Of a stretch of DNA of 64,000 nucleotides, positions 1 through 61,297 are shown in pieces (within the stretch, counting starts at the first letter, position 1; each line of letters begins with the position of its first letter). Made by a program: the position numbers and the translations under genes. This DNA comes from Microglena sp. YARC. Its lineage: Eukaryota; Chlorophyta; Chlorophyceae; Chlamydomonadales; Chlamydomonadaceae. The DNA lies in the NCBI GenBank assembly GCA_022414725.1, contig CM039462.1, forward strand, positions 177,334,400 through 177,398,399. The letters run 5' to 3'. Below the pieces are notes generated by a model that made no database searches, had not been told where the DNA came from, and worked only from the letters and a program-made list of their open reading frames with translations.

Positions 1-480
1 AAAAAAAAACTACCCCCCTCCACTCATACACTACCCCCTCCCCCCCCCCCACACACACCAACCACCCTCCCCCCCCCACCTGGGACACCATCCGATCTTG
101 GCTCCTGTACCACATGGGGTCCACTTGCCTCATATAAACACCATCCAATAGCAACACACCCTCATTGGCTCATAACAAATAAATCCCCACTCCCACCCCC
201 ACCCCACCCACCCACACAAACCACACTCTCCCACCCACCTGGGACACGACCCTGATCAACCTCCTGTACCACAAGGGGTCCACTTCCCTTAGGTCCACAC
301 CATTTAACAGCAGTTGCACCCTCATTGGGCTCATAAAAAAAAAACTCCCCCCCCCACCCACCCCTCACCCACCCACCCACCTGGGACACGACCCTGATCT
401 GGCTCCTATACCACAAGGGGTCCACTCCCCCTGCTTCACACCATCCAACAGCAGCGCAACCTCGTTGGATCATTTAAAAA
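1..480 (-). repeat. Donor-side junction array of the ABC Walker A exon (3 copies)
   Basis: Three degenerate copies (about 80-180, 238-335 and 380-475) of the 3' half of the exon at 572-797, each with its donor site, separated by CCCACCC-rich spacers. The copies keep the coding text from about YDPNEGALL to the donor, with indels. They lie downstream of the true donor in transcription direction, so they are intronic. No acceptor accompanies them. Confidence 0.8.
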
Positions 481-571
481 CAAACTACCCCCCCCCACCC
501 CACCCACCCACCCACCCAAGCACAAACCACACACACACACACACACACACCCACCACCTTCCCTTACCCAC

Positions 572-797
572 CTGGGACACCACCCCGATCTGGCTCCTAT
601 ACCACAAGGGGTCCACGTCCCTCAGGTCGACACCATCCAACAGCAGGGCGCCCTCGTTTGGGTCATAGAGCCGCTTCAAGAGCATGACCACACTAGACTT
701 TCCAGAGCCGGATTGGCCCACCAGGGCGGTGAGTGAGCCAGGGGGGAGGTCCAGGGTAACCTTATCTAGCGCTGTGTGGCTAGGGCGCCCGGGGTAC
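572..797 (-). CDS. ABC transporter (ABCB half-transporter type), exon with Walker A
   Basis: Start of the nucleotide-binding domain of an ATP-driven membrane exporter. The 226-nt exon has acceptor ccacag before position 797 and donor GTGGGTAAG after 572. One base completes the Arg of DVTFR from the exon at 4839-4973, then 75 codons end in phase 0. Visible motifs are the A-loop region [10 protein letters not shown], Walker [10 protein letters not shown], the [18 protein letters not shown] stretch and the Q-loop end IGVVSQ. The signature motif, Walker B and H-loop should lie in exons beyond the window edge. Similarity is to TAP/ABCB8-10-like half transporters; the substrate and the membrane it sits in cannot be told. 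This is the last exon of the gene visible here and it has no frameshift. Confidence 0.93.
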
Positions 798-1775
798 CTG
801 TGGCCGTGTAATCATGCAATTCTCAAAAATTGAAAACAGACATTTTTGAAACCCGTTTGAAACTTGCATTTTTTGCCAGAGCCGGATTGGCCCACCAGGG
901 CAGTGAGAGAGCCAGGGGGGGAAGTCAAGGTTGACCTGGTATAGCGCTGTGTGGCTAGGGTGCCCGGGGTACCTGTGGCCGTGTAATCATGCAATTCTCA
1001 AAAATTGAAAACAGACATTTTTGAAACCCGTTTGAAACTTGCATTTTTTTGCCAGAGCTGGATTGGCCCACCAGGGCGGTGAGAGAGCCAGGGGGGGAAG
1101 TCAAGGTTGACCTGGTATAGCGCTGTGTGGCTAGGGTGCCCGGGGTACCTGTGGCCGTGTATTCATGCAATTTTCAAAAATTGAATAAAAACATTTTTGA
1201 AACTTGCATTGTTTTGCCAGAGCTGGATTGGCCCACCAGGGCGGTGAGAGAGCCAGGGGGGGAAGTCAAGGTTGACCTGGTATAGCGCTGTGTGGCTAGG
1301 GTGCCCGGGGTACCTGTGGCCGTGTAATCATGCAATTTCAAAAATAAAAATAAAACATTTTTGAAACTTGCATTTTTTTGCCACAGCTGGATTGGCCCAC
1401 CAGGGCGGTGAGTGAGCCAGGGGGGGAAGTCAAGGTTGACCTGGTATAGCGCTGTGTGGCTAGGGTGCCCGGGGTACCTGTGGCCGTGTAATCATGAAAT
1501 TTTCAAAAATTGAAAAAAAACATTTTTGAAACTTGCATTTTTTTGCCACAGCTGGATTGGCCCACCAGGGCGGTGAGTGAGCCAGGGGGGGAAGTCAAGG
1601 TTGACCTGGTATAGCGCTGTGTGGCTAGGGCGCCCGGGGTACCTGTGGCCGTGTAATAATGAAAGAAGAAAACAAACCATTTTTGAAATTTGCATTTTTA
1701 GCCAGAGCTAGATTGACCCACCAGGGCGGTGAGTGAGTCCGAGGGGGAGTGCCAGGTGGACCTTGGCTAGTGCTG
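798..1775 (-). repeat. Acceptor-side junction array of the Walker A exon (~165-175 bp unit)
   Basis: Five further copies of acceptor plus exon 5' half (acceptors near 969, 1143, 1310, 1474 and 1640) and a degraded piece at 1690-1770. Each copy runs from the intron through ccacag into the YPG.PSHTAL text and stops near the Walker A codons GQSGSGK, where it jumps back to the intron text (aaaaaatgcaagtttcaaa). They lie upstream of the true acceptor in transcription direction. Confidence 0.88.
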
Positions 1776-2691
1776 CGTGCAAATGTCAATGTCACACCAA
1801 CACACCACCCAAACCCAACCCCCCCCCCCACACACACACCTAATTCCACTCAAAACCCCCAAAGCACCTGAATATGATGACATCTTTGGGACACCTGAAT
1901 ATCTACACCACACCACACACACACACCACACCACACCACACACCACACTACACCACACCACACTACGCCACACCAACATACCCCACAAACCCAAACACAC
2001 CCCCACCCCACCTAATGTCACGCAAAGAAACAAAACCACCTGGAGGTGACAGCTTTTAGACACCTGGATATCCATACTACACTACACCACACCACCCAAA
2101 CCCAAACACGCCCCACTCCACCTAAACCAGCGCGATTTTGCAGTGCGCTTGAGACACCTGGATATACACACCAGAAGGGCATCCCCTCCCTGGTGGTCAA
2201 TGTCGGAGAGGATGGTACACCGGCACCCAAAAAAGATCTGTGACCACCTGGACCTCTGGATGTATAGATATTGAAATTGAAATTGAAATTGTTACATCCG
2301 TATAGAACCGTTACTCACAGGACAGTACTCTGGATGTATAGATACTGTACTACACCACACCACCCAAACCCAAACAAGCCCCACTTCACCTAATCCCACC
2401 CGAAAAAGCGCCCACACACATCCCGCCCCACCCCAACCAAAACCCCCAAAGCAACTGAAAGTGACATCTTTGATACCACACTGCACCACCCCACCACCCC
2501 ACCCCACCCCCACCACACCACACTGCACCACCTCACACCACCCAAACACTGCACCACCTCACACCACCCCACACCACCTAATCCCACCCAACCGGAAAAG
2601 CACCCCACCCCACCTAAGCCTAACACCCCGCCCCACCCCACCCAAAACCCAGAAGTACCAGAAGGTGACATCTTTGAGACAAAGTTGACCA
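1776..2691 (-). repeat. CCACACC-rich intron sequence with donor-junction fragments
   Basis: Low-complexity CCACACCACAC and CCCACCTAATCCCACCC text with recurring short fragments reading ctgaaggtgacatctttgagacacctg, that is, the DVTFR end and donor of the exon at 4839-4973. In the transcript this is G/T-rich. The open frames here are composition artefacts. Confidence 0.65.
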
Positions 2692-2699
2692 CTCCAGTC

Positions 2700-2893
2700 C
2701 AAGTTACTACAAAGCGAGCGCGGCAACGCAATTCGAGCACGCTTTTTGAGCCCCACTGCGCGTTTCTCGCAGTTTTTTTAACTCCCTATGGGCGCAGCGC
2801 GCAGTTTCTGCGCTTTTTCCACTACGACGCGCTGACCAATTTGATGTTTTTGCGCTTTAAGCGCTGACCAATTTGACAAAATGTAGTACCCTC
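2700..2893. mobile_element. hAT-like MITE, family D copy 1
   Basis: A 194-bp non-coding insertion rich in GCGC and AAAAGCGC-type palindromes, unlike the surrounding array. It is flanked by the 8-bp direct repeat CTCCAGTC (2692-2699 and 2894-2901); the match can be slid to 11 bp. The ends are imperfect inverted repeats (CAAGTTACTACA against GAGGGTACTACA). It resembles the elements at 29478 and 30535 and sits inside a copy of the ABC exon text VLDWS. Confidence 0.75.
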
Positions 2894-2901
2894 CTCCAGT
2901 C

Positions 2902-4838
2902 CAACACCCTCCTGTGCATGCTTCCAATATAAGAAGCAGACTTTGAGATACCTGAATATACACACCACACTACACCACACCACCTCATCGCACCCCACCA
3001 CACCTAATCCCACCCAACTCCAAAAGCACCCCACACCAACCCACCCAAACTCGCCACACCAACCCCGAAAAGCACTCCACACCACACCACCCAAACACGC
3101 CACACTAAACCCGAAAAGCACCCCACACCACCCACCCAAACACGCCACACCAACCCCGAAAAGCACCTGAATATGACATCTTTGAGACAGAGTTGACCAC
3201 TCCAGTCCAACACCCCGACCCCACCCAAACCCACCCCTATGGACTCAAACACGCCCTACACCACTCGTTCCAGCCTCACACGTTGTGTGCTTCCAATATG
3301 AGGAGCAGACCTTGAGACATTTGGATATACACACCACCCTACCCCACCCCACCTAATCCCACCCAAAACCCCTGAGCACCTGAATGTGACATCTTTGAGG
3401 CAGAGTTGACCGCTCCAGTCCAACACCCTCTTGTGCATGCTTTCAACACGAGGAGCAGGCTTTGAGCCACCTGGATATACACACCACACTACCCCACCCC
3501 ACCTAATCCCACCCAAAACCCCTGAGCACCTGAATGTGACATCTTTGAGACAGAGTTGAACGCTCCAGTCCAACACCTTCTTGTGCATGCTTCCAACACG
3601 AGGAGCAGGCTTTGAGCCACCTGGATATACACACCCCACTACCCCACCCCACCTAATCCCACCCAAAACCCCTGAGCACCTGAATGTGACATCTTTGAGA
3701 CAGAGTTGAACGCTCCAGTCCAACACCTTCTTGTGCATGCTTCCGACACGAGGAGCAAGCTTTGAGCCACATGGATATACACACCCCACTACACCACACC
3801 ACCTCATCGCACCCCACCACACCTAATCCCACCCAACCCCACCCAGACCACCCCACACCACACCACCCAAACACGAGGAGCAGGCTTTGAGCCAGCTGGA
3901 TATACACACCACACTACACCACACCACCTCATCGCACCCCACCACACCTAATCCCACCCAACCCCACACCACACCACCCCACACCACCCAAACACGCCAC
4001 ACCAACCCCGGAAAGCACCTGAATGTGACATCTTTGAGACAGAGTTGAACGCTCCAGTCCAACACCTTCTTGTGCATGCTTCCGACACGAGGAGCAGGCT
4101 ATGAGGCACCTGGATATACACACCACACCACACCAACCCCACTCAACCAAAACCCACCCCACCCCACACCACAACCCGCCCAAACTTACCCAATGAACCA
4201 AACCATACCCACACCTTACCACCCAAACCCAAACCCACCCCAATGAACCCAAACACACTACACCTTACCACACCACACCACACTACCACACCCCACCTAT
4301 TCCCACCCAAGACTCCAAAATCACCTGAAGGTGACATCTTTGAGACACCTTGATATCCACACCCCACCAACACACCACCACCACCCACCAACACATCACA
4401 CAACGCCACACCAACACACCCCACAAACCCAAACACACCCCCAACCCACCTAATCCCACCCAACCTGAAAATCACCTGAAGGTGACATCTTTGAGACACC
4501 TGGATATCCACACCACATCACACTACACCACATCACACTACGCCACACCAACACACCCCACAAACCCAAACACATCTCACCTCATCCCACCCAACCTGAA
4601 AATCACCTAAAGGTGACATCTTTGAGAGACCTGGATATCCACACCCCACCACCACACCACCCAAACCCAAACTCACACACACACACCTCATCCCACCCAA
4701 CACGAAAAGAACCCCAAACCACACCACACTACACCACACCATACCACCCAAACCCAAACACACCCCACTCCACCTAAACCCGACCCCAAAAGCACCCACA
4801 CATATCCCGCCCCACCCCACCCAAGACCCCAAAATCAC
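2902..4838 (-). repeat. Donor-side junction array of ABC exon 4839-4973
   Basis: Many copies, best between 3290 and 4120, of the exon 3' half (APRVGSMHKKVLDWS.QLC.KDVTFR) plus donor plus intron text ending in tggatatacacaccac. Units are about 150-180 bp, with shorter pieces at 4330, 4480 and 4620. Several copies stay open in the coding frame for 30 or more codons, but each lacks the exon start and an acceptor. Confidence 0.85.
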
Positions 4839-4973
4839 CTGAAGGTGACATCTTTGATGCAGAGTTGACCGCTCCAGTCCAACACCTTCTTGTGTGTGCT
4901 TCCGATCTGAGGAGCAGGCTTGCCATCAAGCAGTTTCAGAACTCTCTCACTGGCTCCCATCGCCTCCATGACC
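4839..4973 (-). CDS. ABC transporter, linker exon between membrane domain and NBD
   Basis: A 135-nt exon with acceptor ctgatgcag before 4973 and donor GTGATTTT after 4839. Phase 2 in and phase 2 out, so its first base completes Glu of FTE in exon 8501-8716 and its last two bases start the Arg before YPGRP. It encodes VMEAMGASERVLKLLDG, the conserved end of the last membrane helix in ABCB proteins, then a variable stretch and IKDVTFR, the first strand of the nucleotide-binding domain. The match to the family pattern (Q.MqAvGASERVF.LLD, then I.F.dVtFrYPsRP) is clear. No indels are visible. Confidence 0.93.
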
Positions 4974-5059
4974 CTGCATCAGAAAATGAGGAGAAGGGGG
5001 TGAGGAGTGTGTTTGTGTGTGGGGTGTGGGTGGGGGTTGGGTAGGAAGAAATTGCAGTT

Positions 5060-5995
5060 TCATACCTCTCACTCAGTGACTGGCTTCCATGGCCTCCATG
5101 ACCCCGCATCAGAAAATGTGGAGAAGGGAACGAGGAGTGTGGGTGTGGGTGGTGTTGGGTGGGTGTTTTGGTTGTTGGGTGGGTGGGTGGGTGTTGGTTG
5201 TTGGGTGGGTGGGTGGGTGTTGGGTGGGTGGGTGGGTGTTGGGTGGGTGGGTGGGTGTTGGTTGTTGGGTGTTGGTTGTTGGGTGGGTGGGTGGGTGTTG
5301 GTTGTTGGGTGGGTGGGTGGGTGTTGGTTGTCGGGTGGGTGTTGGTTGTTGGGTGGGTGTTGGTTGTTGGGTGGGTGTTGGTTGTTGGGTGGGTGTTGGT
5401 TGTTGGTGTTGGTTGTTGGGTGGGTGGGTGGGTGTTGGTTGTTGGGTGTTGGTTGTTGGGTGTTGGTTGTTGGGTGGGTGGGTTTGGTGGGTGGGTGGGT
5501 GTTGGTTGTTGGGTGTTGGTTGTTGGGTGGGTGTTGGTTGTTGGGTGTTGGTTGTTGGGTGGGTGTTGGTTGTTGGTTTTGGGGGTGGGTGTTGGTTGTT
5601 GGGTGTTGGTTGTTGGTGGGTGTTGGTTGTTGGGTGTTGGTTGTTGGGTGGGTGTTGGTTGTTGGGTATTGGTTGTTGGGTGGGTGTTGGTTGTTGGTGG
5701 GTGTTGGTTGTTGGGTGTTGGTTGTTGGGTGGGTGGGTGGTGGTGGGGGGAGGATGACATTGAAGTTTGAGAACTCTCTCACTGGCTTCCATCGCCTCCA
5801 TGACCCTGCATCAGAAAATTAGGAGAAGGGAGTGAGGAGTGTGTTTTGTGTGTGTGTGTGTGTGTGTGTGTGGGGGGGGGGGTGAATGGGGGGGGGGGGG
5901 GGGGGGGGGGGGGTAGGAGGACATTGCAGTTTCATAACTCTTTCACTTGCACCATTGCCTCCATGACCCCGCATCAGAAAATGAGGAGAAGGCAC
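5060..5995 (-). repeat. Acceptor-side copies of exon 4839-4973 around a G-rich minisatellite
   Basis: Three copies of acceptor plus exon start (about 5060-5115, 5765-5820 and 5925-5985) carry the sequence for VMEAM.ASERV. Between the first two lies a minisatellite of GGGTGTTGGTTGTT and GGGTGGGTGGGTG units (5150-5745). It is open in several frames on both strands, and those frames are composition artefacts. The transcript strand is C/A-rich. G4 formation on the plus strand is plausible. Confidence 0.85.
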
Positions 5996-5999: not shown

Positions 6000-6660
6000 C
6001 ATGGCACAACCGAGCAGCAGTGCCATCACTTACTCTGTGACTTATGATAATATAATAACGTGTATTTATTCTCCTCTGATAACCATTTTTTATAAAAGAA
6101 ATAAAGTAAAATAAACAAATAAAATAAGCATAATGCAAGTTGCTGATTCTCGTCAGAGAACCATTTTTTAATAAATAAAATACAATAAATGTTACAATAA
6201 ATAAATAACATACATACAAAAATTAAATATTCAACTCTGGGAAACTGTTTTATTCCACAGCACAGCCGAGCAGCAGTGCCATCGCTTACTCTGTACACTT
6301 TTTTATTCCACAGCACAGCCGAGCAGCAGTGCCATCGCTTACCCTGTACACTGTACTTTATTTGTGTTATTTGTGTTACTCTGTACACTGTACTTTATTT
6401 GTGTTATTTGTGTTACTCTGTACACTGTACTTTATTTGTGTTATTTGTGTTACTCTGTACACTGTACTTTATTTGTGTTATTTGTGTTACTCTGTACACT
6501 GTACTTTATTTGTGTTATTTGTGTTACTCTGTACACTGTACTTTATTTGTGTTATTTGTGTTACTCTGTACACTGTACTTTATTTGTGTTATTTGTGTTA
6601 CTCTGTACACTGTACTTTATTTGTGTTATTGTGTGCTGGGTTACAAGGGCCTCAATCCAT
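6000..6660 (-). repeat. Donor-junction copies and a 35-bp tandem array
   Basis: Copies of the donor of exon 8501-8716 with its intron continuation (cagcagtgccatcgcttactctgt) occur at 6010-6050, 6265-6300 and 6320-6360. The last leads into about eight near-perfect 35-bp units, tgttactctgtacactgta..., at 6360-6640, which appear to derive from the same donor text. The plus-strand LCYLCYSVHCTLFV frames are translations of this repeat. Confidence 0.75.
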
Positions 6661-6779
6661 CCTCTCAAGGGGTAAGACACGGATGAATGCTTTAAGTTAC
6701 AGTTATGATGACATCCCGCAAAACGCTAATCTCTCAGAACCAGGGCAGGGCTAGGGGACAGTGTTTTTTATTTCAGATT

Positions 6780-6960
6780 TCTGAAGTCGAGGTTGAGTAG
6801 CTACTTGGGCTACTCAACCCTGATTTCAGGATAGTTGCATAGCCATCGCATGGCGGAGCGCTAAGCGCGGAGGCTGGGGGGGTCGGGGGGCAGCGCGACC
6901 CGATATCGGGGGGTCAGGGGGGTTAGCATTCTACGGAATGGCGACGCGTCGTTGAAAAAT
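6780..6960. repeat. Unassigned segment with a perfect hairpin
   Basis: Non-array sequence containing GGTTGAGTAGC, a 6-base loop and GCTACTCAACC (about 6790-6820), flanked by inverted ctgaa/ttcag. A GC-rich stretch (ggcggagcgctaagcgcgg) follows. It could be a small transposon remnant; no target duplication was found. Confidence 0.4.
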
Positions 6961-6964
6961 GAAA

Positions 6965-7910
6965 CACTAATCACACTCATTCAATGAGCTGTACACCGCG
7001 AATTCGGTGGAGTAACATTATACCCAGGCAGCCCAAGATATGGTAACATATTTGAGGTGCCACCACCTACTCGGTGAACTCATCACACACATGCAATGAG
7101 CTGTACTCCACATACTCAGTGTATAAACATTAGTCCAAGGCAGCCAAAGTAATGGGAACATATTTGAGGTGCCACCACTAACTCGGTGAACTCATCACAC
7201 ATATTCAATGAGCTGTACTCCACATACTCAGTGTATAAACATTACTCCAAGGCAGCCAAAGAAATGGGAACATATTTGAGGTGCCACCACTAACTCGGTG
7301 AACTCATCACACACATGCAATGAGCTGTACTCCACATACTCAGTGTATAAACATTAGTCCAAGGCAGCCAAAGAAATGGGAACACATTTGAGGTGCCACC
7401 ACTAACTCGGTGAACTCATCACACACATGCAATGAGCTGTACTCCACATACTCAGTGTATAAACATTAGTCCAAGGCAGCCAAAGAAATGGGAACACATT
7501 TGAGGTGCCACCACTAACTCGGTGAACTCATCACACATATTCAATGAGCTGTACTCCACATACTCAGTGTATAAACATTAGTCCAAGGCAGCCAAAGAAA
7601 TGGGAACATATTTGAGGTGCCACCACTAACTCGGTGAACTCGTCACACATATTCAATGAGCTGTACTCCACATACTCAGTGTATAAACATTAGTCCAAGG
7701 CAGCCAAAGAAATGGGAACATATTTGAGGTGCCACCACTAACTCGGTGAACTCATCACACACATGCAATGAGCTGTACTCCACATACTCAGTGTATAAAC
7801 ATTAGTCCAAGGCAGCCAAAGAAATGGGAACATATTTGAGGTGCCACCACTAACTCGGTGAACTCATCACACATGCAATGAGCTGTACTCCACATACTCA
7901 GTGTAGAATT
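6965..7910 (-). repeat. 113-bp tandem array of the TM-exon donor side (~8-9 copies)
   Basis: A highly regular array whose unit reads aactcggtgaactcatcaca...caatgagctgtact...gaggtgccaccact. The part from gtgaactcatcacacacattcaatgagctgtac matches the 3' end of exon 8501-8716 (VVYSSLN.CDEF). The copies are over 90% alike by eye, so amplification is recent. Two longer, more diverged copies sit at 7905-8170 and 8190-8260. Confidence 0.88.
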
Positions 7911-8259
7911 TACAGTTGGTGAGCTGATCTAAGTTGAGCTCTTCCCTGAGCACCATTTGTATACATAAAATCAAATACATGAATACAATAAAACAAATAC
8001 ATAAATATCATGAATACAATACAATTTAACCTCTTTTTTATAAATACGACAAAATAAAATAATACAATAAAGAAAGAACATACATACAAAAAATAAATAC
8101 AATTTATTCTCCTTTGGGATTTTTTTGCCATGGCACAGCCACGCAGGAGTACCACCACTTACTCTGTGAACTCATCACACATATTCAATGAGCTGTACAC
8201 CACGAATTCAGTGTAGAATTTACAGTTGGTGAGCTGCTCTGACTTGAGTTCTCCCCTCA

Positions 8260-8500
8260 GCACCATTTTATACATACAATCAAATAAATGAATACAATAA
8301 AACAAAAACATAAATACCATACATGCAATATAATTAAATGTATGTATTCTCCTTTAAGAACATGTTTTATAAATACAATAAAATGAAACAATACAATAAA
8401 GAAATAACATATGAGATACATACACAAAATGAACATAATTTATCCTCCTCTGGGATTTATTTTTGCCATGGCACAGCCGAGCAGCAGTGCCACCACTTAC
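8260..8500. other. A/T-rich intron remainder
   Basis: Aaataca/ataaa-rich intron sequence directly below the donor of exon 8501-8716, similar to 6050-6230 and 7960-8110. Nothing coding is seen. Confidence 0.5.
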
Positions 8501-8716
8501 TCTGTGAACTCATCACACACATTCAATGAGCTGTACACCACGAATTCGGTGTAGAATATGTAGTTGGTCAGCTGCTCTGAGTTGAGTTCTCCCCTGAGCA
8601 CCATGGCGCACCCCAGCAGCAGTGCCACCACCTTGCATGCATAGCACGCGATGTGGCCGAAGACAACGAACGAGGCGTAGGCTCCGGCTTGGCGGACGCC
8701 AATGCTGTAGAAGCGA
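8501..8716 (-). CDS. ABC transporter, transmembrane exon
   Basis: A 216-nt exon with acceptor ccccttgcag before 8716 and donor GTAAGTGG after 8501. The phases match its neighbours: one base completes Asn after RYC in exon 10583-10662, and two bases start Glu of FTE. It encodes RFYSIGVRQAGAYAS, then a hydrophobic helix and LLLGCAMVLRGELNSEQLT, followed by the last helix before the linker. The MVLRGEL..EQLT text is the ABCB motif in the loop before the final helix. The frame is clean. It belongs to the same membrane domain as exon 17140-17459. Confidence 0.92.
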
Positions 8717-9072
8717 CTGCAAGGGGTAAGGGAGGTGGTGGTGGTGGTCGTGGAAGTGGTGGTGGTGTTCACGGAGGTGGTGGTGGAGGTGGTGGTGGCA
8801 GTAGTGCCACCACCATGCAAGTGTAGCACGCAATGTGGCCAAAGACAACAAATGAGGCGCAGGCTCCGGCTTGGCGGACACCAATGCTGTAGAAGCGACT
8901 GCAGGGGGTAAAGGGACGGGCTGAGAGGGAGGGGGGGGAGGGGGTCTGATTGCGCTTGTGGTGTTGGATGGGAAGGTGGTGGTGGTGGTGGTGGTGGCGG
9001 CAGCAGTGCCACCAATTTGCAAGTGTAGCATGCGATGTGGCCAAAGAAAACAAACGAGACATGGGGTCTTTG
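8717..9072 (-). repeat. Acceptor-side copies of the TM exon
   Basis: Two copies of acceptor plus exon start (about 8805-8915 and 8995-9070), separated by GGTGGT tracts. They carry RFYSIGVRQAGA.ASFVVFGHIACY-like text with mismatches. The transcript here is CCACCACC-rich, complementary to the GGTGGT-rich transcript of 9075-10580 in the same intron. Confidence 0.82.
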
Positions 9073-9074
9073 GA

Positions 9075-10582
9075 GCACTTGCCCCTCATTGCCAAGAGCT
9101 AACTGAGCCTCAACCTCACCACCACATCCACCACCACTACAACCACTACCATCACTACCTCAGAACATAGCATGACGACCACCACCACCACCATAACTCA
9201 GTCTAAGCACTTGCAATATCTTTGAAGTTCTTGCCCCTCATTGCCAAGAGCTAACTGAGCCGTAACCTCACCACCATATCCACCACCACTACAACCACTA
9301 CCATCAATACTTCAGAACATAGCATGACGACCACCACCACCACCATAACTCAGCCTAAGCACTTGCAATATCTTTGAAGTTCTTGCCCCTCATTGCCAAG
9401 AGCTAACTGAGCCGTAACCTCATATTTGGCAGGCTCTTTTCTGATCCCCTTTCCTCCATATCCCACCCCACAGCCGACACCACCATCACCACCGTCACAG
9501 AACATAGCATGACAACCACCACCACCACCACCACACCACACCATGGCCACCGTTACTGACAGCATAACCCAATCTAAGCACCTGCAGTATCGCTGAAGAT
9601 CTTGTTCCTTGGTGCCAAAAGTTACCTGGGCCTTACCCCACAATCACCACCAGTACCACCACCACCATTGCCACCACCCTAACCTACCCTAACCACTTGC
9701 AGTATTGCTGAAGATCTTGTCCCTCGGTGCCAAAAGCTACCTGCGCCTTAACCCCACAATCACCACCACTACCACCACCACCATAACCTTCTCATTACCA
9801 CAACCACCAACATCACCATAACCACCACCACCACCACCATTGCCACCACCTTAACCATTTGCAGTATTGCCGAAGCTCTTGTCCCTCGGTACCAAAAGCT
9901 ACCTGAGACTTAACCTCAACACCAACACCACTACTACTACAACCATCACTACCACAGAACATAGCATGACAATCACCACCACCACCACCACCACCACCAG
10001 AACCCACTCTAAGCACTATATCTTTGAAGTTCTTGCCCCTCATTGCCAAGAGCTAACTGAGCTCTAACCTCATATTTGGCAGGCTCTTTTCTGATCCCCT
10101 TTCCTCCATACCCCACAGCCGACACCACCACCACTACCACAGAACATTGCATGACAACCACCACCACCACCAGAACCCACTCAACCACACCACCACCACC
10201 ACCACCAAACACCACCACCACCACCAGAACCCACTCAACCACCACCACCACCAGAACCCACTCTAAGCACTTCGCTGAAGTTCTTGTCCCTGGGTACCAA
10301 AAGTTATTTGAGCTTCAACCTCAACACCACTACCACACACACCACCACCACCCACCACCACTTCCAGTATTGCTGAAGTTTCTTGCTACTCGGTGCAAAA
10401 CGCCACACCACTACTGCCACCACCACCACCCTAACCTACCCTACCCACTTGCAGTATCGATGCAGTTCTTGCTCCTCTGTGCCAAAAGCTGCCTGAGCCT
10501 CACCACCACCACCACCACCACCACCACCACCACCACCACTAGCACCATCACTACCACCACCATCCTAACCTACCCTAACCAC
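9075..10582 (-). repeat. Donor-side array of exon 10583-10662 (~10 copies)
   Basis: About ten copies of the FGTEGQELQRYC end plus donor (near 9090, 9230, 9385, 9600, 9725, 9880, 10035, 10285, 10395 and 10470), spaced 70-250 bp apart by ACC-rich tracts. Some are frame-preserving. All lack the exon start. Confidence 0.87.
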
Positions 10583-10662
10583 TTGCAGTATCGCTGAAGT
10601 TCTTGCCCCTCGGTGCCAAAAGCTCGGACAAGACGGGATAGAGACATTACCTCATCAGCCAC
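10583..10662 (-). CDS. ABC transporter, 80-nt coupling-region exon
   Basis: Encodes VADEVMSLSRLVRAFGTE followed by GQELQRYC and two bases of the next codon, with acceptor ctctccccag and donor GTGGTTAG. This is the long cytoplasmic helix of the ABCB membrane domain (family pattern A.evaeEvLs.irtVrsF..E..e..RY). It enters in phase 0 after NQ of exon 12078-12156 and leaves in phase 2. The donor is weak (GTGGTT), yet the family match and phase on both sides make the call firm. Confidence 0.9.
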
Positions 10663-10689: not shown

Positions 10690-11860
10690 ATGTGGTGGTG
10701 GTGGTGGTAGTGGCAGTGGTAGTTGTGGTGGTCGTGGTAGTGGCAGTGGTAGTCGTGGTGGTGGTGGTAGTGGCAGTGGTAGTCGTGGTGGTGGTCATGC
10801 TATGTAAGGGTGTTATGCAAAGGTATATTTTGGGGAGATAAGGGTTGTGTTATGTGGTGGTGGTGGTTGTGGTGGTGAGGTTGAGGTGGTATTTGTTGTT
10901 TTGGTTGTGGTGGTGGTGGTGGTGGTGGTCGAGTTCGGGGTCGAAAGCAGGGGTATGCTATGTGGTGGTAGTGGTGGTGAGGTTGAGGTGGTATTTGTTG
11001 TTTTGGTTGTGGTGGTGGTGGTGGTGGTGGTGGTGGTCGAGTTCGGGGTCGAGAGCAGGGGTATGCTATGTGGTGGTAGTGGTGGTGAGGTTGAGGTGGT
11101 ATTTGTTGTTTTGGTGGTGGTGGTGGTGGTGGTGGTGGTGAGGTTGAGGTGGTATTTGTTGTTTTGGTGGTGGTGGTGGTGGTGGTGGTGGTGGTGGTGG
11201 TGGTGGTGGTGGTGGTGGTGAGGTTGAGGTGGTATTTGTTGTTTTGGTGGTGGTGGTGGTGGTGGTGGTGGTGGTGGTGGTGGTGGTGGTGGTGGTGGTG
11301 GTGGTGAGGTTGAGGTGGTATTTGTTGTTGTGGTTGTGGTTGTGGTGGTGGTGGTGGTGGTCGAGAGCAGGGTTATTTGGTGGTGGTGGTTGTGGTGGTG
11401 GTGGTGAGGTTGAGGTGGTATTTGTTGTTGTGGTTGTGGTTGTGGTGGTGGTGGTGGTCAAGAGCAGGGTTATTTGGTGGTGGTGGTTGTGGTGGTGGTG
11501 GTGAGGTTGAGGTGGTATTTGTTGTTGTGGTTGTGGTGGTGGTGGTGGTGGTGGTGGTGGTGGTGGTGGTTGAGGTCGAGGGCAGGGGTATGTGATGTGG
11601 TGGTGGCGATGGTAGTAGTGGTGGTGGTGGAGGTGAGGTTGAGGTGGTATTTGTTGTTGTGGTTGCGGTGATGGTGGTGGTGGTGTTCGAGGTCGAGGTC
11701 CAGAGCAGGGGTATATGATGTGGTAGTGGTGATGGTAGAAATGGTGGTGGTGGTGGTGGTGGTGGTGATGGTGGTGAGGTTGAGGTCGGGGCTTAGGTAG
11801 CTGTTGGCACCGTGGGGCAAGGGGTTCAGCGATTCGGCAAGTGCTCAGGGTAGGTGAAGG
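10690..11860. repeat. GGTGGT/GTTGAGGTGG array ending in an inverted exon copy
   Basis: Long GGTGGT tracts punctuated by about ten copies of gaggttgaggtggtatttgttgtt. At 11797-11850 a copy of the FGTEGQELQRY end plus donor appears on the plus strand, inverted relative to the gene, followed by GGTGGT. The block is thus roughly an inverted repeat of 9075-10580. The V/G/W-rich and T/P-rich open frames are artefacts. Confidence 0.75.
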
Positions 11861-12077: not shown

Positions 12078-12156
12078 CTGATTAGCGCATGCCATGACGT
12101 CCTGATTGACTCTCTGGGCATGCCTAGTGTAGTTCCCATATGCTAGGGTCAATGCC
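12078..12156 (-). CDS. ABC transporter, 79-nt exon
   Basis: Encodes (W)ALTLAYGNYTRHAQ then RVNQDVMACANQ. The acceptor is ccccacag and the donor GTATGAATG. It enters with one base completing Trp from exon 17140-17459 and leaves in phase 0. The family pattern is the turn after membrane helix 4 (ar.YG...r.ls...Qd.lA.An.vAeE), and it joins perfectly to VADEV in the next exon. Two further acceptor-side copies lie at 13005-13085 and 13605-13690. Confidence 0.9.
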
Positions 12157-12164: not shown

Positions 12165-13700
12165 TTGGGGGGGGGGGGGGGCGGGGGGGGGGGTGTGTTT
12201 GGGGTTGGAGTTGGGGGGGGGGGGGGGGCGGGGGGGGGGGGGGGGTTTCAGTTGGGCAAAGGGTAAAGGGGCTAGGGGGTACCGATATTGACTAGCTAAA
12301 ACCCTAAACCTAGGGGTATCGTTGCTGAATGGCTCACCAAAAGAATGGTTGAAATGGTGGGTGACAAGATAGAGTTGGTGGCGGGGTGGGGGGTAGTGGT
12401 GGTGAGGGTGGGGGTGGCAGAGTTGTTGTTGGTGGTGGTGGTGGTGAGGGTGGGGGTGGCAGAGTTGTTGTTGCTGGTGGTGGTGGTGAGGGTGGGGGTG
12501 GCAGAGTTGTTGTTGGTAGTGGTGGTGGTGAGGGTGGGGGTGGCAGAGTTGTTGTTGTTGGTGGTGGTGGTGAGGGTGGGGGTGGCAGAGTTGTTGTGTT
12601 GGTGGTGGTGGTGAGGGTGGGGGTGGCAGAGTTGTTGTTGGTGGTGGTGGTGGTGAGGTGGGGTTGGTGGGGGAGTGTTTTGCGAGGATTGTGGGATTAG
12701 GGTGTTTGGGGTTAGTGGTTTGGTGGATGGGGATCAGGAGGTAGAGGGGGTAGGGGGTAGTGGGTTGGGGTGTTAGGGGTTAGTGGGTTGGTGGATGGGG
12801 ATTGAAAGGTAGAGGGGTAAGTGGGTTGGGGTGTTAGGGGTTAGTGGGTTGGTGGATGGGAGTTGGGAGGTAGAGGGGGTAGGGGGTTGGGGTGTTAGGG
12901 TTAGTGGGTTGGTGGATGGGAGTTGGGAGGTAGAGGGGGTAGGGGGTTGGGGTGTTAAGGGTTAGTGGGTTGTAGGGTATGTGGGTTTATGGGTCGGCAT
13001 GTGGATTAGCGCAAACCATGGTGTCCTGATTGACTCTCTGGGCATGCTTAGTGTGGTCCCCACATACTAGGGTGTCAATGTCCTGTGAGGGTGGGGGAGT
13101 GGGGGACAGAGATCGGGAGGTAGAGGGTTTGAGGTTTTAAGGGTTGGTGGGTTTATGGGTTTATGGGTTGGTGGGTTGGTGGGTATGTGAGTTGGTGGGT
13201 TGGGTATGTGGGTTGGGTATGTGGGTTGGGTATGTGGGTTGGGTATGTGGGTTGGGTATGTGGGTTGGGTATGTGGGTTGGGTATGTGGGTTGGGTTTGT
13301 GGGTTGGGTATGTGGGTTGGGTATGTGGGTTGGGTATGTGGGTTGGGTATGTGGGTTGGGTATGTGGTTGGGTATGTGGGTTGGGTATGTGGGTGGGGTA
13401 TGTGGGTTGGGTATGTGGGTGGGGTATGTGGGTGGGTATGTGGGTTGGGTATGTGGGTTGGGTATGTGGGTTGGGTATGTGGGTTGGGTATGTGGGTTGG
13501 GTATGTGGGTTGGGTATGTGGGTTGGTGGGTATGTGAGTTTGGATGGGTTGTGTGGGTATGTGAGTTGGTGGGTATGTGGGTTGGTGGGTTGGGTTGGCA
13601 TGTGGATAAGTGCAAGCCATGACGTCCTGATTCGACTCTCTGGGCATGGCTAGTGTAGTTCCCATATGCTAGGGTCAATACCCTGTGGGGGTGGGGGAGT
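12165..13700 (-). repeat. G-rich minisatellites and acceptor-side copies of exon 12078-12156
   Basis: Plus-strand poly-G (12165-12245), a ~40-bp unit with ggtggcagagttgttgttg (12395-12660), a ~60-bp unit gttagtgggttggtgg... (12700-12970) and a 13-bp unit GGGTTGGGTATGT (13195-13540). Two copies of acceptor plus exon (13005-13085 and 13605-13690) keep LTLAYGNYT.HAQR-like text with indels. The transcript is C/A-rich. Confidence 0.85.
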
Positions 13701-13719: not shown

Positions 13720-14030
13720 GGGATATCAAACCCACCAGCCCCACCAAAGCCACCCAAACCACCAGCCCGCACCAAGCACCAAACCACCAGCCCCACCAAG
13801 CCACCAAACCACCAAGCACCCAAACCCACCAAGCCACCAAAACCCCAAGCCAGCCCAAACCCACCAAGCCACCCAAACCCACCAGCCACCCACCACCAAG
13901 CCACCCAAACCCACCAAGCCACCCAAACCCAAGCCACCCAAGCAACCCAAACCCCCAAACCAGCCCCCACCAAGCCACCCAAGACCCACCAAGCCACCCA
14001 AACCCACCAAGCACCCAACCCACCAAAGAA
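13720..14030. repeat. CCACCAAGCCACCCAAACC repeat
   Basis: Degenerate ~19-bp units; the transcript strand reads GGTTTGGGTGGCTTGGTGG. It marks an abrupt switch of strand composition from the G-rich block at 12165-13700. The same unit recurs at 16975-17130 just below the donor of exon 17140-17459. Confidence 0.85.
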
Positions 14031-17000
14031 TTGTTGAAATGCCTAGAGTGACAAGGCACATCTCCTTGGACAGGAACCAAAGTTAGGTGAATGAGGGATG
14101 GTGTGTGCTGGGGTTCGATAAGGGGTATTGTCGTTGCCTTGCTTACCAAATATTTTTTGGAATGCCTAGAGTGACAAGGCACATCACCTTGGACAGGAAC
14201 CACAGATAGATGAAACCACCGATGGCCCATCAACCCAACCAAACACACCAAGCCTACCAAATAATTATTGAAATGCCTATAGTGACAAGGCACATCACCT
14301 TGGACAGGAACCACAGATAGATGAAACCTCCGATGCCTTGGAACAAATTGCGCAGCGAAATGTCGAAGTTGATGGAAAAGCATTTGGCAACGGCACACAC
14401 CAACCAAACTCACCAAACCCATTAAACCCACCAAAGAATGGTTGAAATGCCTAGAGTGCTCAGGCACATCACCTTGGACAGGAACGACTAATAGATGAAA
14501 CCACCGATGGCTCATCAACCCCACCACACACACCCAAGCCATTAAACACACCAAGCCCATCAAGAATGATTGAAATGCCGATAGTGACAAGGCACATCTC
14601 CCTGACAGGAACCACAGATAGATGAAACATATATGGCCCAACAAGCCACCAAACAACACCAAGCCCATCAAAGAATGATTGAAATGCCGATAGTGACAAG
14701 GTACATCTCCTTGGACAAGAACCACAGATAGATGACACCACAGAAGGCCCATCAAGCCCACCAAACACACCAAAAAACACACGCAAAGAATTGTTTGATA
14801 CGCCTTTAGTGACAAGGCACATCTCCTTGGACAGGAACCACAGATAGATGGCACAACCAATGGCCCATCGAGCCCACCATACACACCAAGCCCATCAAAG
14901 AATGATTGAAATGCCTATAGTGACAAGGCACATCTCCTTGGACAAGAACCACAGATAGATGAAACCACCGATGGCCCAACAAGCCCACCAAACACACCAA
15001 GCCCATCAAAGAATGATTGAAATGCCGATAGTGACGAGGCACATCTCCTTGGACAAGAACCACAGATAGATGACACCACCGATGGTCCATCAAGCCCACC
15101 AAACACTCCAAGCCCACCAAATAATTGTTGATACGCCTATGGTGACAAGGCACATCTCCTTGGACAAGAACCACAGATAGATGGCACAACCAATGGCCCA
15201 TCAAGCCCACCAAACACACCAAGCCCATCAAAGAATGATTGAAATGCCGATGGTGACAAGGCACATCTCCTTGGACAAGAACCACAGATAAATGACACCA
15301 CCGATGGCCCATCAAGCCCACCAAACACACCAAGCCCATCAAAGAATGATTGAAATACCTATAGTGACAAGACACATCTCCTTGGACAAGAACCACAGAT
15401 TGATGACACCACAGATGGCCCATCAACCCAACCAACCCACCAAACCCACCAAATAATTGTTGCAATGCCTATAGTGACAAGGCACATCTCCTTGGACAGG
15501 AACGACAGATAGATGAAACCACCAATGGCCCATCAACCCAACCAGCCCCACCAAAGCCACCAAAGAATTGTTGCAATGCCTGTAGTGACAAGGTACATCT
15601 CTTTGGACAAGAACCACAGATAGATGACACCACCATGGGCCCACCAAGCCAACCAACCCACCAAACCCACCAAATAATTGTTGTCTGCTTACCCAATGGC
15701 CCACAAGCCCACGCTAACCCACACAGAATTGTTGAAATGCCTATAGTAACAAGGGCACATCTCCTTGGACAGGAAACCACAGATAGAATGAAAACATATA
15801 TGGCCCATCAAGCCCACCAAACACACCAAGCCCACCAAAGAATTGTTGATACGCCTATAGTGACAAGGCACATCTCCTTGGACAGGAAACACAGATAGAT
15901 GAAAACATATATGGCCCACCAAACACACCAAGCCCACCAAAGAATTGTTGATACGCCTATAGTAACAAGGCACATCTCCTTGGACAGGAACCACAGATAG
16001 ATGAAACCATATATGGCCCATCAAGCCCACCAAACACTCCAAGCCCACCAAATAATTGTTGATACGCCTATAGTGACAAGGCACATCTCCTTGGACAAGA
16101 ACCACAGATAGATGAAACCACCGATGGCCCATCAAGCCCACCAAACACACCAAGCCCATCAAAGAATTGTTGATACGCCTATAGTGACAAGGCACATCTC
16201 CTTGGACAAGAACCACAGATAGATGAAACCACCGATGGCCCATCAAGCCCACCAAACACACCAAGCCCACCAAAGAATTGTTGATACGCCTGTAGTGACA
16301 AGGCACATCTCCTTGGACAAGAACCACAGATAGATGACACCACAGATGGCGCCATCAAGCCACCAAACACACCAAAGCCCATCAAAGAAATTGTTGATAC
16401 GCCTATAGTGACAAGGGCACATCTCCTTGGACAAGAACCACAGATAGAATGACACAACCGATGGCCCATCAAGCCACTACAAACACACCAAGCCCATCAA
16501 AGAATGATTGAAATGACTATAGTGACAAGGCACATCTCCTTGGACAAGAACCACAGATAGATGAAAACATATATGGCCTGACAAGCCCACCAACCCCACC
16601 AAATAATGATTGATATGCCTATAGTGACAAGGCACATCTCCTTGGACAGGAACCACAAATAGATGAAAACATGTATGGCCCGACATGCCCACCAACCCCA
16701 CCAAGCCCACCAAATAATGATTGATATGCCTATAGTGACAAGGCACATCTCCTTGGACAGGAACCACAAATAGATGAACCCCCCGATGGCTTGGAACAAG
16801 TTGCGCAGCGAAATGTTAGAGCTGATGGAAAAGCACTTGGCAATGGCCTGGCAGTCGGATTGCAGTCTGCTGGTGAGAGCACAGACAGGTATACCATCAA
16901 AGAACGTCATACCACAGCCTACACCAGAAATGCTGGACTTGATAAAAAAAGGAACTTGGCAATCGCATAAACCCATCAAACCCACCAAGCCACCCAAACC

Positions 17001-20420: not shown

Positions 20421-20500
20421 CCCTGTGGTCGTTTGTTGCTGTGGTTTTGTGTGTGTTTGTTTGGTGTGTGTATTGGTGTGGTTGGTGTGTGGTGGTGTTG

Positions 20501-26744: not shown

Positions 26745-26877
26745 AGAGGGGGATGTAGCGGTCATCAGTGGTGTCGGCACATGCCACTACTACCGCAAGC
26801 TGGGCTACCACCTGGAGGGGCACTACATGGTCAAGGACTTGACACCACCTCCCAGCCGACGAAAGAGGAGGTTGTAG
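26745..26877 (+). pseudogene. Second copy of ELP3 last-exon 3' half
   Basis: Purine-rich gaagaagaag linker, then [13 protein letters not shown] text through [21 protein letters not shown] to a TAG stop. It differs from the first copy at only a few bases and lies downstream of the true stop, so it is probably untranslated. Confidence 0.85.
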
Positions 26878-29618: not shown

Positions 29619-29629
29619 CATGACATGGC

Positions 29630-39235: not shown

Positions 39236-39279
39236 CCTGCCATTGAGCCATATTCGTCAGCGTTTCGGCCATCTGTGTT

Positions 39280-46689: not shown

Positions 46690-47084
46690 CGAGAAAGACC
46701 CCCCCCCCCCCCACCCACCCCACACACACACACTCATTTACCTGTTGAACAGAGAAGCAGTATCTGGCCCATTCAGCCCTCCCCCCCCCCCCCCCACCCA
46801 CCCACCCCACCCACCACCCAGCACCACACACACACACACAAACACACACTCATTACCTGTGAACAGAGAAGCTAGCATCTGGCCCATTCAGCCCCCCCCC
46901 CCCCCCCGCCCCCCCCCCCTCACACACACACATTACCTGTTAAACAGAAAAAGCTAGCATCTGGCCCCCATTCAGCCCCCCCCCCCCCCCCCTTCCTCAC
47001 ACACCCATTTACCTGTTGAACAGAGAAGCTAGCATCTGGCCCATTCAGCCCCCCCACCCCCCTCACACACACACACACATTTAC
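46690..47084 (-). repeat. Donor-side array of the active-site exon (~5 copies)
   Basis: Copies of the exon end (DASFSVQQ text) plus donor GTAAATG, each followed on the transcript by TGTGTG and then a poly-G run. Spacing is 60-100 bp. Confidence 0.88.
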
Positions 47085-47222
47085 CTGTTGAACAGAGAAG
47101 CTAGCATCCTGCGCCCGGTTAAGGCAGGGTTTTGCCCAACCAAGTTGAAATCGTTTCGAGGCCAAGCATTCCGAGAAGGCCCATCCACTTGCACACAGGC
47201 CTTGGTCCTTGGGACTTGGATT
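47085..47222 (-). CDS. Papain-family (C1A) protein, active-site exon with Cys replaced by Gly
   Basis: Acceptor ccccag, donor GTAAATG. It reads PKDQGLCASGWAFSECLASK, RFQLG and, near the end, QDASFSVQQ. Papain-family proteins have ..vkdQG.CGSCWAFs; here the oxyanion Gln (DQG) and the first Cys are present, but the catalytic Cys before WAF is Gly (codon GGA). A second copy upstream (47320-47370) also reads agtggatgg at this point, so it is unlikely to be a single read error. One C is missing near the exon start (AATCCAAG against AATCCCAAG in the copy). SVQQ followed by VLDC matches the family's lS.QqLvDC. Confidence 0.83.
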
Positions 47223-55844: not shown

Positions 55845-56001
55845 CGTGTCGATGACATACTGAAGCTTGAGAGCAGTCACCCTAGCTTGTTGTGGTGTTG
55901 TAACCAACAAGTTCGGTGAAACAATGAGTTCTTGAATCAGCTCATTGGTCACTGCTAGGCGTTGTTCAGGGGTCATGGGGGCTGGGCCACAATCAGCTGA
56001 G
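55845..56001 (-). CDS. C1A gene, N-terminal-extension exon
   Basis: A 157-nt exon with acceptor ctctaccaccag and donor GTAGGGAGG. One base completes Ser from exon 58475-58629, then 52 clean codons end in phase 0. It encodes SADCGPAPMTPEQRLAVTNE, LIQELIVSPNLLVTTPQQAR and VTALKLQYVIDT. It looks like a folded extracellular segment, but I cannot name a domain. An alternative acceptor (cagctcag, six bases inside) would break the phase. Confidence 0.75.
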
Positions 56002-57640
56002 CTGGTGGTAGAGAACCTGAGGGGGAATGGATGTTGGGCAGAGGTCATGGGGGCTGGGCCACAATCAGCTGAGCTGGTGGTAGAGAACCTGAGGGGGAAA
56101 GGATGTTGGGCAGGGGTCTTGGGGGCTGGGCCACAATCAGCTGACCTGGTGGTAGAGAACCTGAGGGGGAAAGGACGTTGGGCAGGGGTCATGGGGGCTG
56201 GGCCACAATCAGCTGAGCTGGTGGTAGAGAACCTGAGGGGGAAAGGATGTTGGGCAGGGGTCATGGGGGCTGGGCCACAATCAGCTGAGCTGGTGGTAGA
56301 GAACCTGAGGGGAAAGGATGTTTGGGCAGGGGTCATGGGGGCTGGGCCACAATCAGCTGAGCTGGTGGTAGAGAACCTGAGGGGGAAAGGATGTTGGCAG
56401 GGGTCATGGGGGCTGGGCCACAATCAGCTGAGCTGGTGGTAGAGAACCTGAGGGGGAAAGGACGTTGGGCAGGGGTCATGTGGGCTGGGCCACAATCAGC
56501 TGAGCTGGTGGTAGAGAACCTGAGGGGGAAAGGATGTTGGGCAGGGGTCATGTGGGCTGGGCCACAATCAGCTGAGCTGGTGGTAGAGAACCTGAGGGTG
56601 AAAGGATGTTGGGCAGGGGTCATGGGGGCTGGGCCACAATCAGCTGAGCTGGTGGTATAGAACACGAGGGGGGAAAGATGTTGGGCAGGGGTCATGGGGG
56701 CTGGGCCACAATCAGCTGAGCTGGTGGTAGAGAACCTGAGGGTGAAAGGATGTTAGGCAGGGGTCATGGGGGCTGGGCCACAATCAGCTGAGCTGGTGGT
56801 ATAGAACACGAGGGGGGAAAGATGTTGGGCAGGGGTCATGGGGGCTGGGCCACAATCAGCTGAGCTGGTGGTAGAGAACCTGAGGGGGAAAGATGTTGGG
56901 CAGGGGTTATTGGGGCTGGGGCAGTGGGGGGCAGTAAGCTGATCTGTCAGTGATTGATGTTGTTGTTCAGGGGACATAGGGGCTGGGGCACAATCAGCTG
57001 TGCTGGTGGTATAGAACCTGAGGGGCAAAAGATGTTGGGCAGGGATTATTGGGGCTGGGGCACAATCAGCTGTGCTGGTGGTATAGAACCTGGGAGGGAA
57101 AAATATGTTGGGTAGGGGTCACAGGGCTGGGGCAGTGGGGTGCAGTAAGCTGATCTGTCAGTGCTTTGCATTGTTCAGGGCTTATTGGGGCTGGGGAACA
57201 ATCAACTGTGCTGGTGGTATAGAACCTGAGGGGGAAAAGATGTTGAGCAGGGGTTATTGGGGCTGTGGCAGTGGGGCACAGTAAGCTGATCTGTGAGTGT
57301 GCTTAACGTTGTTCAGGGGACATAGGGGCTGGGCCACAATCAGCTGTGCTGGTGGTATATAACCTAAGGGGGAAAGACGATGGGTAGGGTTATTGGGGCT
57401 GTGGCAGTGGGGCACAGTAAGCTGATCTGTCAATGCTTGATGTTGTTCAGGGGACGTAGGGGCTGAGGCACAAACAGCTGCACTGGTGGTATAGAACCTA
57501 AGGGGGAAAATATGTTGGGCGGGGCTGTCTGGGGCTGTGGCAGTATGGCACAGTAAGCTGATCTGTCAGTGATTGATGTTGATCAGGGGTCATTGGGGCT
57601 GGGGCACAATCAGCTGTGCTGGTGGTATACAACCTGGGTT
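56002..57640 (-). repeat. Acceptor-side array of exon 55845-56001 (~20 copies, 75-120 bp)
   Basis: Very regular units of gggctgggccacaatcagctgagctggtggtagagaacctgaggg (acceptor plus SADCGPAPMTP), near-identical at 56000-56900 and more diverged, with a cagtaagctgatctgtcag insert, at 56900-57640. Both strands are open in places; intronic. Confidence 0.9.
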
Positions 57641-60050: not shown

Positions 60051-60138
60051 CACAAGCACACAGAAGATTTACACACGCACACACTCGCAACACACACACA
60101 CACGCAACACACACAATTAAGACGTGCGCGTTTCCGAC

Positions 60139-60262
60139 CTTCATTCCGGCCGGGAACAAGAAGGAATTCTGCCTCCCAAGTACTTCAAGGTCACTGGGGT
60201 ACTTCTTCCCACATGTCGTCCCAGCAGCTGGTGCACCTATCTTCAGAATTTGTGATGCGGCA
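60139..60262 (-). CDS. C1A gene, N-terminal-extension exon 2
   Basis: Acceptor tttcttgaag, donor GTCGGAAAC. In phase 0 it reads CRITNSEDRCTSCWDDMWEE; then one extra C in a run shifts the frame, after which SDLEVLGRQNSFLFPAGMK ends in phase 0. Removing that base makes entry and exit both phase 0, fitting exons 1 and 3. It adds three cysteines close to the N-terminus. No family recognised. Confidence 0.6.
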
Positions 60263-60284
60263 CTTCAAGAAACGTGTAGGGAGG

Positions 60285-61190
60285 CAAGGGGGGGGGGAGT
60301 GGCGGGGTGGGTGCATCGGGGAGGGGGGAGTTTTTTTTGTAGGGAGAGGGGGGGGGGGGGGGTGGGGGGGGGGGGCGGGGGGGGGGGGGGGGGGGGGGGA
60401 GGTGGGGGGGGTCCGAGAAGATAAAGCACATTCTTTTCGAAAGGTCATGATGGGTAATTCAAGAGGATATAAAGGGGACCAGTGCAGAGAGAGGGAAGGG
60501 TGGTGTGGTGTGTGTGTGGGGGGGGGAAGGGGCGTGGGGGGGGAGGGGGGGATTGAGAATGTGTGTGTGTGTGTTTGGGGGGGGGTGGGGGCGGGTGGGG
60601 GTGGGAGAGAACATGAGCACTTAAGAGGAAACAGAGGAGCAGAGGCAGAGAGAGAGAAGGGTGTGGGGTGGGGAGTGGGTGGGTGAATGAGCGATGAGGG
60701 GTGGGGTGTTGGGGTGTAGGGGTGTCTAGGGGGGGTGGGGGGATTGTGTATGTGTGTGTTTGGGGGGCTGGTGTGGGGGGCGTGGAGAGAACAAGAGCCT
60801 GTGAATGAGGATACAGAGAGAGCAGTGCAGAGAGAGGGAAGGGGAGGTTGGGGCCGGGGATCGTGGGGAGTGGGTGGGTGGGTGGATGAGCGATGAGCGA
60901 TGAGGGTTGGGGAAAGGTGGAAGTGGGGGTGGGGTGGGGTGGGTGGGGGGGTGGGGGTGGGTGGTTGGGGAGGGGGAGATGAGGGGTGGGGGTGGGGGGT
61001 GGGGGGGGAGGTGGTAAAAACAGTAGAACACCACTTTACCTATAGCACTCACCACTGGGGGGTGGGAGTGGGGTGGGGGTGAGAGAAGGTGGGGTGGGCG
61101 GGGGTGTGGGTGGGTGAGATGGGGTGTGTGGGAGGGGTTAAGATGAGGGGGGGGGTAAAAACAGTCCAAACCACTTCAACCATAGCACTC
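60285..61190 (-). repeat. Poly-G and GGGTGGGG intron with donor-side copies
   Basis: Very G-rich plus strand (60340-60415 almost pure G). One diverged donor-side copy of exon 1 with its intron text (ccactttacctatagcactcacc) sits at 61025-61055. The transcript is C-rich right up to the acceptor at 60262. Confidence 0.8.
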
Positions 61191-61192
61191 AC

Positions 61193-61297
61193 CTCTCCTG
61201 TGCAGTCGGTACTGGGATACACTCGGATGGAGGTGGGTGTCACAGTTAGGGCCAACAGGGCCCAAACTGATAGCCAGACAAATCCTAGAAGATTCAT
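61193..61297 (-). CDS. Secreted C1A-family gene, first coding exon (signal peptide)
   Basis: Begins at ATG 61297 and runs 35 codons to donor GTGAGTGC in phase 0. MNLLGFVWLSVWALLALTVT has an uncharged hydrophobic core followed by TPTSIRVYPSTDCTGE, a typical signal peptide with likely cleavage near residue 20. The product should enter the secretory pathway, fitting the disulfide-type cysteines downstream and the papain-like domain at 42482-48219. Linkage to those exons rests on strand, order and matching phases across ten junctions. Confidence 0.78.

Follow-up and report, generated by a model that had tools for sequence, protein, structure and literature searches.

Exon copies in the introns of the ABC transporter gene

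The window analyzed here, a stretch of 64,000 nucleotides from the green alga Microglena sp. YARC (contig CM039462.1, positions 177,334,400 to 177,398,399), contains an ABC transporter gene whose introns carry tandem arrays copied from the ends of the exons beside them. These introns probably lengthened through repeated tandem duplication, on a local scale, over coding sequence (CDS) edges, the outermost splice sites being predicted to keep the message intact. The gene occupies the left 20.5 kb of the window on the minus strand and is its best-resolved gene. Exons A to F joined as an unbroken frame of 353 amino acids (aa) with GT-AG introns, and the joined protein matched ABC_membrane (PF00664) and ABC_tran (PF00005).

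A total of 96 same-strand alignments between exons and introns of this gene merged to 95 copies, and one further copy was inverted. The 95 copies were spread over 10 of the 12 adjacent exon-intron pairs, with 2 to 24 merged copies per junction; the junctions without copies by local alignment were the 3' (donor) side of exon B and the 5' (acceptor) side of exon C. The 30 non-adjacent pairs were free of copies, and dinucleotide shuffling of all 42 pairs, repeated 10 times, likewise produced none. Recognizable exon copies made up 6,416 of the 19,441 intron bases (33%), a total comprising five complete introns and two cut by an assembly gap or the window edge.

Exon 5' halves lay in the upstream introns and exon 3' halves in the downstream introns in 92 of the 95 copies, in agreement with an earlier note on this DNA, which had placed exon 3' ends below the donor and exon 5' ends above the acceptor. 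Three copies departed from this rule: two came from the interior of exon D and lay downstream of it, and one was a near-complete exon B. The single inverted copy, a piece of exon C, lay inside intron B->C. When 25-base probes were taken along the exons, repeats of the 5' side were detected only upstream and those of the 3' side only downstream, with the exception of one interior exon D probe; a few single matches occurred elsewhere or on the opposite strand. A self-comparison of the window, one of the checks that the note had proposed, displayed nearly all repeats as local and direct, and 155 near-perfect tandem tracts were present in a listing made for microhomology.

The exon-bearing units of the arrays measured about 72 to 165 bp (72-73, 111, 112, 129, 150 and 165 bp), with wider spacings of about 310 bp. 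Several seam positions were found per junction (113, 166 and 176 at D3'; 53, 88-92 and 117 at E3'; 131, 140 and 153 at F3'). Since copy starts and ends varied within one junction, these data suggest repeated duplication of the junctions. Amplification in minisatellite fashion, at a constant seam, then followed for some units, among them those of 111 bp by exon A and those of 112 bp by exon D. In the F acceptor array, five copies were 0-2 edits from their neighbors versus 10-11 from the exon, and in this array evolution was concerted within the cluster, as in the mirages of lancelets discussed below; the other arrays were more mixed. At 8460-8500 on the minus strand, intron D->E opened with a copy of interior exon D sequence (positions 86-116 of the exon; AAG/GTGGTGG site alongside), which looks as though the duplicated unit had contained almost no intron.

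Distribution of the copies in other genes

The earlier note had described one architecture shared by genes on both strands, and the ABC gene (minus), ELP3 (plus), a secreted-type gene (minus) and a cysteine-rich open reading frame (ORF; minus) agreed with this description. Further exons of the ABC gene just beyond the window (L001, the last part of the gene) showed the same pattern by protein-level matching.

The note's extension of the pattern to the genome held for the exons that were sampled. Copies were detected at 22 of 39 chosen exons on several scaffolds, 11 of 19 for kinases and 11 of 20 for helicases. The polarity was as expected in all 81 same-strand copies (48 of 48 kinase and 33 of 33 helicase copies), with one opposite-strand match. 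The 19 kinase exons were hand-picked from 136 listed matches after exclusion of full-domain matches and one near-identical repeated family; they are partial-domain matches, many of whose ends may not be exon boundaries, so that the rates are rough. The 20 helicase exons were hand-picked from 150 listed matches, with near-identical repeated families excluded. When the whole genome was searched with exon D, only the best candidates being scored, 13 matches were returned, all within this one locus, and no second allele was found in the assembly.

Decay of the copies

The GT was retained in 39 of 54 mapped donor copies and the AG in 18 of 24 mapped acceptor copies. The mean identity of the alignments was about 86%, at which about 74% of unselected dinucleotides are expected to survive, and net gaps shifted the frame in 34 of the 96 alignments. 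The copies decay neutrally and behave as dead DNA. Most of them retain GT or AG, so that splicing would have to pass decoys.

Differences between copy and exon were 0.107, 0.076 and 0.186 at the first, second and third codon positions, the third being highest, while those between copy and copy (0.139, 0.096 and 0.147) were not similarly raised at the third position relative to the first. Sites at which at least 80% of the copies agreed against the exon numbered 7, 5 and 16 by codon position. These values fit an exon that evolved on under constraint and copies that kept older states, the copies within an array not being independent.

Growth at the junction only, with the youngest copy nearest the exon, was also considered and rejected. 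Such an order was found in S56 5' alone (rho 0.65, p 0.003) and was not seen in A3, A5, C3 and F5 (rho 0.23, -0.01, 0.12 and 0.17, respectively); the figures for D3, E3, E5 and ELP3, which included chance matches elsewhere in the window, were not used.

Proposed mechanism of intron growth

The DNA step may be slippage or unequal exchange and would be blind to splice sites. A duplication within an exon would break the protein and be lost, while one across an edge would leave the true exon outermost and park the copy in the intron. After a donor-spanning duplication the true exon end would come first and the copied end would lie in the intron; after an acceptor-spanning one the true exon start would come last. 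The spliceosome would skip the decoy sites, as predicted from the unbroken 353-aa frame. Because edge-crossing duplications would survive, exon ends should accumulate on the intron side only. Such polarity would arise automatically from any tandem duplication over a constrained edge, and thus no special machinery would be needed.

In a simulation, duplications of 35-170 bp fell at random and were rejected only if they lay within an exon or spanned an entire intron. The mean exon-derived share was 0.28-0.42 when introns started at 150-250 bp, versus the observed 0.33; shorter starting introns gave 0.52-0.67 and longer ones 0.16-0.19. Some stop-codon edges were copied as well: two copies were present after ELP3, one after the ABC gene and two (81% and 70% identity) at the stop edge of the E2-type exon L061. 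The UQ_con exons used were 9 of 51. L063 was not counted as a stop, as it looks like a splice boundary with five copies of the donor-side type, and the uncertain L062 was left uncounted. Since the untargeted simulation reached the observed share and some stop-codon edges were copied, targeting to splice junctions need not be invoked. The earlier note had proposed that introns grow by repeated local duplication across splice junctions; repeated local growth over exon edges was borne out, but the junctions as its target were not, the polarity being automatic.

Several observations weigh against growth by duplication across coding edges in general. No copies were found at 8 of the 19 kinase and 9 of the 20 helicase exons, and three first exons had none, the start codon being pinned in none or one of them. 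The stop edges L064 (whose stop is uncertain), L065 and L066 were without a stop-spanning copy. The starting intron lengths and the unit range of the simulation were chosen, not measured. Furthermore, 20 dispersed intronless histone H3 genes, used out of 150 listed loci, had no copies at their 40 CDS ends, although a median of 35 sites out of 411 differ among these CDSs. Tandem repeats with a period of at least 25 covered 0.9% of the 2-kb H3 stretches; the coverage was 26.9% for the kinases (10-kb stretches) and 16.8% for the helicases (2.4-kb stretches). H3 has no copies and few repeats, and therefore duplication, or the survival of duplicates, varies across the genome. Intron-bearing genes may be hotter, other DNA may lose duplications, or the flanks of the histone genes may be constrained.

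As to the H3 loci themselves, 82 of the 150 listed histone matches spanned the full H3 domain with an identical top score; these were scattered across many scaffolds. The 20 loci examined had protein ends and length in common and unrelated upstream flanks.

Alternative explanations

Duplication may instead be targeted to transcribed and spliced boundaries, where coding-strand sequence, G-rich after donors and C-rich before acceptors, would form unstable structures such as R-loops and thereby trigger duplications. We regard this as unlikely, if worth keeping in mind. It would agree with the concentration of arrays at intron-bearing loci and their near absence at H3, and with a coding-strand GC skew that was greater in the 5' than in the 3' half of all five complete ABC introns (with opposite signs in two of the five). 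Against it stand the copied stop-codon edges, the exon share reached by the untargeted simulation and intron D->E, whose donor half is A+T-richer with low skew (0.10; G+C 0.41 at 6001-8000) and still has a donor array. The wider proposal that transcription or splicing directs duplication to exon edges and so lengthens the introns of most genes, leaving a layered record at each junction of which the spliceosome uses the outermost sites only, appears slightly more doubtful.

It is improbable that the arrays are maintained because G-rich donor-side and C-rich acceptor-side RNA pair and join the splice sites. The same skew, with 5' halves more G-rich than 3' halves in five of five introns, would favor such pairing, but the own ends of six introns paired no better than mismatched ends (mean -211.5 vs -253.9 kcal/mol).

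Errors of assembly or reads are a very improbable source of the arrays. The right-hand piece of the window does in part resemble unpolished long reads, with many indels in the ELP3 exon near 22465-22620, and exact divergence there is unreliable. However, sequencing error is blind to codon position and would not give a third-position excess against the exon that is missing between copies; moreover, the seams were constant over runs of units, tandem repeats were rare at the H3 loci of the same assembly, and the pattern recurred on several scaffolds.

Introner-like or other transposable elements can practically be dismissed as providers of the units: introners were found in 5% of the species searched, according to one paper (PMC9860276), but the units here carry the sequence of their own exon, the six ABC exons were copied in adjacent introns only (seven introns compared), and exon D, the one exon used in a genome-wide search, matched nothing beyond its locus.

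Other features of the window

The features of the window are compiled in Table 1.

Table 1. Positions of exons and exon-derived copies in the window
Feature	Position	Strand	Remarks
Exon A of ABC transporter	17140..17459	-	GT-AG, unbroken frame; PF00664/PF00005
Exon B of ABC transporter	12078..12156	-	GT-AG, unbroken frame
Exon C of ABC transporter	10580..10662	-	GT-AG, unbroken frame
Exon D of ABC transporter	8501..8716	-	Unbroken frame; whole-genome search: 13 matches, this locus only
Exon E of ABC transporter	4839..4973	-	GT-AG, unbroken frame
Exon F of ABC transporter	572..797	-	GT-AG, unbroken frame
Acceptor-side array, 22 copies of exon A 5' end	17520..20423	-	
Donor-side array, 24 copies of exon A 3' end, mostly 111-bp units	14020..16904	-	
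Two acceptor-side near-complete exon B copies	13004..13690	-	
Inverted exon C piece	11795..11845	+	Coordinates approximate, by eye
Donor-side array, 10 copies of exon C 3' end	9040..10490	-	
Two acceptor-side copies of exon D 5' part	8800..9058	-	
Exon D donor-side array, 10 copies of 3' part (run of 112-bp units) and 2 interior pieces	6000..8496	-	
Three acceptor-side copies of exon E 5' end	5056..5978	-	
Donor-side array, 11 merged copies of exon E 3' part	2030..4625	-	
Acceptor-side array, 6 copies of exon F 5' end, 165-bp units	877..1779	-	
Three donor-side copies of exon F 3' end	80..466	-	
Preceding ELP3 exon edge (indels) and three donor-side copies	22597..23494	+	Composite probe
Acceptor-side array, 10 copies of ELP3 last-exon 5' end	24294..26312	+	
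ELP3 last exon, to stop codon	26515..26701	+	ELP3 relatives
Two downstream copies of ELP3 CDS 3' end	26755..27620	+	26755-26890 with stop; 27485-27620 without stop
Cysteine-rich ORF donor edge and two copies	31937..32231	-	
Secreted-type gene donor edge and four donor-side copies	46748..47091	-	
Secreted-type gene acceptor edge and array, 18 copies	55967..57609	-	Nearest copies almost identical to exon

No opposite-strand matches were found to the edges of the other genes of the window, edge S42 3' had no copy at the threshold used, and a Pfam search with five short ORFs of these genes returned no match. The penultimate exon of ELP3 (22465-22620) contained many single-base indels, and some of its array copies were clean, which suggests either unpolished sequence or a decayed copy.

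The host assembly comprises 568.1 Mb in 2,390 contigs. The ABC gene (minus) and ELP3 (plus) face each other across a run of exactly 1000 N at 20501-21500. The join is doubtful because it leaves no room for the remainder of ELP3; the two sides of the gap probably do not belong together, and the gap may join unrelated pieces. The proteins of the window were closest to green algae. After a self-like model, the next relative of the ABC transporter was Polytomella parva (order Chlamydomonadales). Among the best 120 of 2,688 relatives of ELP3, Chlamydomonas eustigma and Haematococcus had 80-83% identity, and by E-value entries from a bird, a water flea and a fungus outranked them.

The nearest database protein to the ABC gene was the gene model gene24557-10168_t, which appears to be a model of this same genome. 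It carried the sequence of true exons, included two array copies as exons and was without exons B and C. The rubisco activase model gene3393-3667_t, presumably from the same genome by the style of its name, had 410 aa versus 408 in the query so that nothing points to decoy exons inserted in it. Among the 120 ELP3 entries listed of 2,688, none was a model with a name of this style.

Other repeats were also observed. A minisatellite of about 6 kb (33450-39300) consisted of units of about 37 bp with many indels, and 95% of it was covered by tandem repeats; no relation to an exon was seen, and none was searched for. A dispersed repeat of the AATTGGTCAGCGC...GCGCCCA type, recognized by reading and by an inverted self-match, was located at 2720-2900 (minus), 29480-29620 (plus) and 30530-30740 (plus), one copy lying within ABC intron E->F. 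Inverted copies of a GC-rich dispersed element of the GGGGGCGGGAGCCCCC type were located by self-comparison at about 29060 (plus) and at 52880 and 53960 (minus).

Significance and comparison with known systems

Intron growth is commonly attributed to transposons. The copies described here are a record of intron growth that could be dated copy by copy, and the arrays form a natural test of how the spliceosome ignores dozens of decoy sites. They are also a warning for annotation, as gene24557-10168_t, apparently this ABC gene, reads decoys as exons while leaving out true ones.

Among the open-licence PMC papers listed in literature searches, no title or abstract opening reported the pattern in an alga or on a genome scale, and 12 of 13 passages on introns, ICE-L and tandem repeats in a related snow-alga genome paper (PMC11228838) did not mention it. 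The earlier note knew of no described process that would give it, a claim that did not stand, since lancelet mirages are tandem repeats spanning exon-intron boundaries (PMC3087553, PMC3902484).

Introners resemble the present copies as lineage-specific intron DNA but are dispersed elements, whereas the copies here adjoin their own exon. Intron gain at AGGT sites (ATP2A1; potato RdRp) likewise involves tandem duplication with splice signals. A single tandem duplication of intron-exon structure in potato RdRp yields a new intron (PMC4974935), whereas in Microglena existing introns appear to lengthen.

The closest likeness is to the mirages, for which two papers (PMC3087553, PMC3902484) report the following. 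They are minisatellite-like tandem duplications spanning intron-exon boundaries on the 5' and 3' sides, found in Adh3, the globins BflGb6 and BflGb9, troponin C and PGBD5. Their units measure 10-160 bp, with 81-100% identity in BflGb6; AG/GT is kept by many but not all copies, clusters are homogenized, and length instability or polymorphism together with normal splicing has been reported. The arrays of this alga are alike in being boundary-spanning tandem repeats on both the 5' and the 3' sides, with AG/GT in many but not all copies. Mirages are described there from a few genes of one animal group, whereas this green alga bears copies at all but two of the 12 junctions of one gene and at 22 of the 39 exons chosen elsewhere. 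The arrays also differ in reaching up to 24 copies, in accounting for a third of one gene's intron DNA, in including some stop-codon edges and in that splicing is here predicted only. We regard this pattern as a genome-wide case of a known structure, the mirages, in a distant lineage.

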